A DNA stretch of 51,750 bases from Motilibacter aurantiacus (GTDB lineage Bacteria; Actinomycetota; Actinomycetes; Motilibacterales; Motilibacteraceae), in assembly GCF_011250645.1 (NCBI RefSeq), contig NZ_JAANNO010000017.1:3355-55104 (forward strand), given 5' to 3'. Positions 1,864-3,522 of this stretch are shown here, piece after piece (position 1 is the stretch's first letter; the number at the start of each line of letters is the position of its first letter). A program made the translations under genes and the position numbers. The notes beneath the pieces are model-generated. The model saw only the letters and a list, made by a program, of their open reading frames with translations, did not search any database and was not told where the DNA came from.

Positions 1864-1879
1864 TCGAACGTGTGTTCGA
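1864..1879. promoter_or_regulatory. Perfect actinobacterial LexA/SOS box upstream of dnaB
   Basis: The sequence reads TCGAACGTGTGTTCGA, an exact match to the mycobacterial SOS-box consensus TCGAAC-N4-GTTCGA with both 6-bp arms intact. It lies 28 bp before the dnaB ATG and about 300 bp before the divergent MATE gene. LexA binding here is inferred from the consensus; the position best fits repression of dnaB transcription. Confidence 0.75.
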
Positions 1880-1980
1880 ATACTATCGGCCCCCGCTGAC
1901 GGCTTCCGGCAGCACCGCGACGAGCGACGCACAAGCTAGGGAACGATCGCCTCCGGGTCCAACCGCCCCTGTGCACAGGT

Positions 1981-2175: not shown

Positions 2176-3522
2176 GTGCAGTACGTGCCCGGCCCGGACC
2201 GCGACGCCGGGGAGCCGAGCCTCGAGCGCCAGCTGGTCCGGCTGGCCGTCCCCGCCTTCGTCGCGCTGGTGGCCGAGCCGCTGTTCCTGCTCGTCGACTC
2301 CGCCATCGTGGGCCGGCTCGGCACCGTCCCGCTCGCCGCGCTCGGCATCGCCGGGGCCGCCCTCACCGTCGTCGTCAGCCTCTGCGTCTTCCTCGCGTAC
2401 GCCACCACCGCCGCCGTCGCCCGGCAGGCCGGCGCCGGGGACCTGCGCGGCGCCGTGGCCCAGGGCATGGACGGGCTCTGGCTCGCCGGCGCCATCGGGG
2501 CGGTCTGCGCGGTCGCCGGGCAGGCCGTGGCGCCCTGGGCGGTCGCCGCGCTGGGCGCATCGGAGGCGGTCGCCCCCGGCGCCACCACGTACCTGCGGAT
2601 CGGCCTCACCGGCCTGCCCGGGATGCTCCTCGTGCTGGCCGCCACGGGGGTCCTGCGCGGCGTCCAGGACACCCGCACGCCGCTCCTCGTGGCCTCGGCG
2701 GGCGGGGTGCTCAACGCGGTCCTCAACTACCTCCTGGTCTACCCGGCCGGCCTCGGCCTTCCCGGGTCCGCGCTCGGCACCGTGCTCACCCAGACCGCCA
2801 TGGGAGCCGCCCTGGCCCTGCCCGTCGTGCGCGCGGCCCGCCGCCACGACGTGCCCCTGCGGCCGCACCCCGCCGGCCTGGGCCGCTCGGCGGCCGCCGG
2901 CGTGCCGCTGCTCGTCCGGACGCTGACCCTGCGGGCGGCCCTGCTGCTGGGGACGTACGTCGCCGCTCGCACCCCCCGCGGCGACGTCGCGCTCGCGGCG
3001 CACCAGGTGGCCGGCAGCGTGTGGAGCTTCCTGGCGTTCGCCCTCGACGCCCTGGCCATCGCGGCCCAGGCGCTCGTGGGGCACGCCCTGGGCTCCGGCG
3101 ACCCCGCCCGCGCCCGCCGGGTGCTGCGCCGGACGCTCGAGTGGGGGCTCGTCTCCGGGGTCGTGCTGGGGGCCGCCGCGCTCGCGCTGCGCGGGGCGTA
3201 CGTCCCGGTCTTCAGCTCCGACCCCGCGGTGCAGGACGCGCTGTCCTCGGCCCTGGTCGTCGTGGCCCTGCTCCAGCCCGTCGCCGCCCTCGTCTTCGTC
3301 CTCGACGGGGTGCTCATCGGCGCCGGGGACGGGCGCTACCTCGCGGTGGCCGGGGTCGTGACGCTCGTCGTGTACGCCCCGCTGGCGCTCGCGGTGCTCG
3401 CGGCCGACGGCGGGCTGGTGCCCCTGTGGTGGGCGTTCGGGGCGTTCATGGGCGCGCGGCTCGTCACGCTGGTCCTGCGGGCGCGCGGGGAGCGGTGGAT
3501 GGTGCTCGGCGCAGGGCGGTGA
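2176..3522 (+). CDS. MATE family efflux transporter (DinF-like)
   Basis: The 448-residue polytopic membrane protein has about 12 predicted hydrophobic segments and the two-fold repeat of MATE exporters. It begins RLAVPAFVALVAEPLFLLVDSA and carries the second-helix signature SAIVGRLGTVPLAALGIA. MATE proteins export cationic or oxidative compounds by Na+ or H+ antiport; the substrate here cannot be read from sequence. The GTG start is supported by the leaderless -10 at 2164-2169. A MATE gene beside dnaB/rplI is standard in Actinobacteria. The DinF subfamily name comes from the SOS-controlled E. coli gene, and the intergenic region here does hold a LexA box, although that box lies nearer dnaB. 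Confidence 0.92.
   Translation: MQYVPGPDRDAGEPSLERQLVRLAVPAFVALVAEPLFLLVDSAIVGRLGTVPLAALGIAGAALTVVVSLCVFLAYATTAAVARQAGAGDLRGAVAQGMDGLWLAGAIGAVCAVAGQAVAPWAVAALGASEAVAPGATTYLRIGLTGLPGMLLVLAATGVLRGVQDTRTPLLVASAGGVLNAVLNYLLVYPAGLGLPGSALGTVLTQTAMGAALALPVVRAARRHDVPLRPHPAGLGRSAAAGVPLLVRTLTLRAALLLGTYVAARTPRGDVALAAHQVAGSVWSFLAFALDALAIAAQALVGHALGSGDPARARRVLRRTLEWGLVSGVVLGAAALALRGAYVPVFSSDPAVQDALSSALVVVALLQPVAALVFVLDGVLIGAGDGRYLAVAGVVTLVVYAPLALAVLAADGGLVPLWWAFGAFMGARLVTLVLRARGERWMVLGAGR

Follow-up and report, generated by a model that had tools for sequence, protein, structure and literature searches.

A perfect SOS box on a PafBC-type promoter points to probable damage control of the replicative helicase gene dnaB in Motilibacter aurantiacus

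Results

A perfect SOS box adjoins a putative -10 hexamer upstream of dnaB

The stretch of DNA analysed here (the window; 51,750 nucleotides of the M. aurantiacus genome) carries dnaB and, facing away from it across a gap of 339 bp (1837-2175), a gene for a MATE family transporter that begins with a GTG codon (Table 1). This gap contains the only perfect SOS box of the window, reading TCGAAC-N4-GTTCGA on the plus strand with no mismatch, the form quoted as the mycobacterial SOS-box consensus (PMC4181829). A first-pass annotation made from the sequence alone had placed such a box in the gap common to both genes, 28 bp before the dnaB ATG; this is borne out in full, the distance being correct if one counts to the A of the ATG, with 27 bases (1837-1863) intervening.

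Directly adjoining the box is the hexamer TAGTAT, a putative -10 element of dnaB. This hexamer ends a sequence, running from 1901 down to 1880, that had gone unnoticed in the annotation and that resembles the PafBC (RecA-NDp) motif, given for M. tuberculosis as TGTCGG-N10-TA-N3-T with the variants TGTCAG and TGTCAC (PMC8151990). PafBC is activated by single-stranded DNA and adapts the housekeeping sigma factor to its promoters (PMC11804915). The copy in the window has lost the first T of TGTC, a position where 0.99 of the aligned copies have a T, under a collecting rule that is itself biased to T. A scan for consensus sigma-70 promoters and for terminators found neither within 1700-2300, which fits a promoter without a -35 element and proves nothing. 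A TGTCGG at the coding start in the window, which the scoring rule had chosen over the promoter motif, was not counted.

Table 1. Genes and candidate control elements around the dnaB promoter (window coordinates)
Feature	Position	Strand	Basis and remarks
dnaB, replicative DNA helicase, 456 aa	466..1836	minus	TIGR00665, 551.3 bits (cut-off 385.25); PF00772, PF03796
SOS box (LexA operator)	1864..1879	.	TCGAACGTGTGTTCGA, perfect palindromic consensus; recurs upstream of dnaB in relatives
Putative -10 hexamer TAGTAT	1880..1885	minus	Sequence; register is that of the TA of relatives' PafBC motifs
PafBC motif, one mismatch, CGTCAG-N10-TAGTAT	1880..1901	minus	Three places equally good per 2 x 51,728 window positions; includes the -10 hexamer
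Divergent MATE family efflux transporter	2176..3522	plus	TIGR00797, 295.7 bits (cut-off 147.4); judged to lie outside the control unit

The source genome encodes both damage regulators and has boxes at usual SOS genes

From the base composition of the window, about 0.0007 perfect boxes are expected per window and 0.06 per genome. Seven window matches have at most two mismatches, against a shuffle mean of 1.86, and none of 100 shuffles got to seven. In the genome as a whole (4.59 Mb in 62 contigs) there are three perfect boxes, that of dnaB included; places with no more than one mismatch number 32, compared to 10 for a reversed control pattern. The genome is G+C rich and has many near matches, some of them inside genes, so that the box upstream of dnaB could be taken for a functionless chance palindrome; the expected number per genome, the shuffles, the reversed-pattern control and the local excess of boxes upstream of dnaB in relatives (below) lead us to reject this explanation as very improbable.

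Both LexA (TIGR00498, 254.7 bits) and RecA (TIGR02012, 570.8 bits) are encoded, with scores above cut-off. One-mismatch boxes precede recA, lexA, a radical-SAM gene and a gene which, recognised by eye, we take to be ruvC. A perfect box precedes an operon comprising a DUF6504 gene and a gene for a PHP-domain polymerase, which we take for dnaE2; here a strict PafBC motif is followed by the box, the same order as at dnaB. The operon belongs to a damage polymerase, a usual SOS member, whereas dnaB encodes the essential replicative helicase. The third perfect box (contig C23 of the source genome, 29182-29197) is flanked by a tadA-like gene and a transposase-like remnant and has no clear target.

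Profile libraries also revealed a pafA-pafB-pafC cluster, in which adjacent WYL/WCX proteins lie downstream of pafA. PafC is recognised by its HTH_PafC domain (134.8 bits), while the name PafB is suggested by WYL/WCX domains and by the place of the gene between those of PafA and PafC. Strict PafBC motifs number 22 in the genome, against three reversed, and 10 of them precede repair or replication genes. One of the 22 stretches is the dnaE2-type operon, and downstream frames were scanned for 15 of the remaining 21: nine correspond to recA, uvrA, uvrB, ligA, a DnaE-type polymerase, a gyrase-B-type gene, sbcD, a LigD polymerase domain and a DEDD exonuclease, the other six to transporters, an antitoxin-like protein or no match. 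With ligA, the DnaE-type polymerase III alpha subunit and the gyrase-B-type gene among those preceded by a strict motif, further replication genes may be damage-inducible in the source genome.

SOS boxes recur upstream of dnaB in a patchy fashion

Recurrence was assessed in two sets of loci, the best 80 of 591 relatives ranked by DnaB similarity to the window, in which near families are over-represented, and 140 loci, window included, from a class draw of 296 genomes (289 matched), part of them best matches and part hand-chosen for spread over families. A common anchor was placed in DnaB and up to 450 bases upstream were scanned; removal of four duplicates from the 220 regions left 216 distinct ones. 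Perfect boxes were found in 21 of the 220 regions, boxes with at most one mismatch in 37 and with at most two in 59, compared to means of 0, 0.15 and 3.75 in 20 rounds of dinucleotide shuffling. Among the best 80 of 591 relatives, the density of boxes with at most one mismatch was 0.72 per kb upstream of dnaB (19 matches) and 0.0037 per kb elsewhere (two matches), a local enrichment of about 195-fold. Boxed lineages in this set comprise Mycobacterium, Amycolatopsis, Saccharomonospora, Thermocrispum, Tamaricihabitans, Geodermatophilus, Modestobacter and Actinomycetospora, not all loci of each genus being boxed; in the 140-locus set, boxes with at most one mismatch occur in 10 of 44 family codes.

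On conservation of the box in related genera, which the first-pass annotation had proposed as a check, the answer is mixed. A box with at most one mismatch is present in 37 of the 216 distinct regions and missing from 179, and in three sister-genus genomes the best box has two (G002), two (G003) and four mismatches (G004). In the available genome of the same genus, a contig edge leaves residues 162-456 of DnaB only, with the promoter outside. The distribution is patchy, and weak in the sister genera, and we count both the unboxed regions and the weak sister-genus boxes against LexA control.

In one family (code f18; L146, L149, L158, L231-L234), seven of the eight dnaB regions lack a PafBC motif and have a box with at most one mismatch. 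Most of them show TTGAC(A) 15-17 bases before the box, which looks as if a housekeeping promoter controlled by LexA had taken the place of the PafBC promoter.

The box goes with dnaB rather than with the divergent exporter

The box lies in an intergenic gap common to both genes, and the annotation had suggested that DNA damage may raise either DnaB or a divergent 'MATE (DinF-like)' exporter. Membership in the MATE family is upheld (Table 1); the DinF label is loose, as the protein falls far short of the DinF equivalog PRK10367 (83.1 bits, cut-off 409). The box is 296 bp away from the start of the exporter gene. Among the best 80 of 591 relatives, 22 loci have a MATE match, 18 of which we counted by hand as near and divergent; left out were one match about 2.1 kb upstream and cut by the locus start (L009) and three downstream of dnaB (L040, L041, L073), and none of these four loci has a box with at most one mismatch. 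In this set, none of the 18 loci where a MATE gene is near and divergent has such a box, and none of the 19 boxed loci has such a gene there. The operator belongs with dnaB, and we reject control of the exporter as extremely unlikely, given its distance, its family score and the lack of co-occurrence in this set. For the dnaB half of the suggestion, the presence of LexA and RecA, the boxes at usual SOS genes and the recurrence in distant families speak in favour of a damage response, as far as sequence can tell.

A PafBC motif is widespread at dnaB promoters

All three sister-genus genomes have TGTCAG or TGTCGG with the TA in register (TGTCRS-N9-11-TA). This pattern, in the 90-360 base range, is present in 101 of the 216 regions; eight of these also have a LexA box within one mismatch of the consensus and 93 do not, while 29 regions have the box only and 86 have neither. 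The narrower TGTCRG-N9-11-TA, 60-260 bases upstream of the anchor, occurs in 91 of 216 regions, compared to 1.9 in ten shuffles, and TGTCRGTG in 66 (3.3 shuffled), with six for the reversed GTGRCTGT (1.5 shuffled). The hexamer TGTCRG alone, found in 149 regions against 39.3 shuffled, exaggerates the enrichment, since the reversed hexamer GRCTGT also exceeds its shuffles about twofold (46 of 216 against 21.0); the longer motifs are less affected. Among the best 80 of 591 relatives, the motif in sense orientation has a density of 1.742 per kb upstream of dnaB and of 0.0437 per kb and strand elsewhere, a 40-fold local excess, and no antisense motif was found upstream of dnaB in this set.

Right at the PafBC -10, four loci of family code f20, which includes Jiangella (L116, L119, L186, L189), share the recurrent sequence TAGAACGTGTGTATGA. 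This Jiangella-type sequence has three mismatches and may represent a LexA box in decay, its left half serving as the -10 hexamer. Separately, DnaB matches ending near residue 398 and frames of 912-967 aa, in two Jiangella loci (L070, L072) and in G002 and G003, hint at inteins in dnaB of these relatives; the DnaB of the window, at 456 aa, is without an intein.

Box and PafBC motif meet at one spot in several lineages

A PafBC motif and a box with no more than two mismatches occur together in 22 regions, and 16 of the 22 boxes lie 13-37 nt past the T of TGTC, where they would sit on the -10 or the likely transcript start, a usual position for a repressor. The remaining six, two-mismatch 'boxes' of a Nocardioides type 90-133 nt past TGTC, fall into coding-like sequence and were excluded as operators. 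The offset is 13-16 nt in two sister-genus genomes and one Pseudonocardiales genome, 22 in the window, 26-27 in Geodermatophilaceae and 34-37 in mycobacteria and code f4-g6.

Across lineages we tentatively distinguish the PafBC motif alone (most Nocardioides loci examined, Jiangella), PafBC and LexA sites together (mycobacteria, some Geodermatophilaceae), and a LexA box whose PafBC partner site is lost or decayed (Amycolatopsis and its kin, the window's genus). On a quick DnaB tree of 81 rows, in which 25 of 71 inner branches are open and many forks poorly supported, the box requires at least eight changes and the PafBC motif 10. We infer repeated gain or loss of the operator at one functional spot.

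Discussion

Judged by its sequence setting, the box upstream of dnaB is real and recurrent, and probably a damage-control element; its evolutionary context makes it interesting. Our preferred reading, to which we assign a probability of about 0.7, is that positions 1864-1879 constitute a LexA operator over the likely dnaB transcript start, and that it confers a mostly LexA-driven damage response on a PafBC-type promoter. Binding, repression, induction and a benefit from more helicase are what we infer from the motifs, their position, their recurrence and the genes of both regulators. LexA, bound just downstream of the TAGTAT hexamer, would block RNA polymerase at the start site and so, in undamaged cells, lower dnaB transcription without fully shutting off an essential gene. 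Upon damage, RecA filaments on single-stranded DNA would trigger self-cleavage of LexA, and its loss would raise dnaB jointly with recA, the ruv genes and the dnaE2 operon; the additional DnaB could then serve to reload the helicase at stalled or broken forks. Where its motif is intact, PafBC would work on this promoter too, from the upstream side; in the window its action may be weak.

The roles of the two regulators could also be reversed, with damage control of dnaB resting mainly on PafBC and the LexA box acting as a secondary fine-tuner. The abundance of the PafBC motif at dnaB, the presence of pafB and pafC and the strict motifs at repair and replication genes of the source genome are in line with this, as is M. 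tuberculosis dnaB, which is partially PafBC dependent (PMC8151990). We nevertheless consider it rather unlikely for the window, where the PafBC copy is without the first T of TGTC while the LexA box is perfect; given this mismatch, LexA probably carries most of the response. Returning to LexA as the main regulator here, we think it probable that dnaB has a damage-inducible promoter that is served by PafBC, LexA or both, depending on lineage, and that DNA damage leads to more DnaB in the source organism and in related actinobacteria.

The first-pass annotation knew of no well-described LexA control of the main replicative helicase in Actinobacteria. This needs correction: in M. tuberculosis, dnaB is overexpressed on mitomycin C, depends in part on PafBC and has a putative upstream SOS box (PMC8151990), so that neither LexA nor PafBC is proposed here for the first time as an input to a dnaB gene. 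According to the same work, dnaB is still overexpressed when recA is missing and pafBC turned down, which its authors explain by low LexA (PMC8151990); overexpression without recA departs from what plain RecA-LexA control would predict. The likeness between the two promoters is considerable, yet they differ in that the M. tuberculosis box is termed putative and its PafBC input derives from expression data (PMC8151990), whereas the window has a perfect box and a PafBC motif with one mismatch; moreover, the mycobacterial box lies farther from TGTC, as described above. A further parallel is mycobacterial recA, a single gene under both PafBC (P1, RecA-NDp) and LexA (P2), as we propose for dnaB; in recA the two inputs use separate promoters (PMC5656591, PMC8223512), while at dnaB both motifs are fused into one core promoter. 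RecA-NDp extends to other actinobacteria, and several genes have both sites (PMC8223512). M. smegmatis dnaB is listed only as changed in biofilms (PMC12702967), and the term dnaB is absent from the main texts of a LexA ChIP-seq paper on S. venezuelae (PMC9380542) and of a survey of SOS in the gut (PMC3998124), both of which we count against LexA control. A class-wide survey, perfect operators in distant families and an apparent switch of regulator were not found in the open-licence literature searched; supplementary tables of LexA and PafBC binding studies in mycobacteria and Streptomyces may list dnaB.

The replicative helicase is usually regarded as a constant housekeeping component and not as a stress gene. 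Somewhat short of even odds, and thus tentatively, we suggest that damage induction of dnaB goes far back in the class Actinomycetes, its output kept while the regulator was exchanged, with an increase in helicase as a standard part of fork restart. If this is true, two unrelated systems that sense single-stranded DNA would switch the helicase across the Actinomycetes, a class with antibiotic producers and mycobacteria among its members. That would suggest that helicase supply limits replication restart in this class, and dnaB would offer a natural case in which one transcriptional output moves from activator to repressor control or back.
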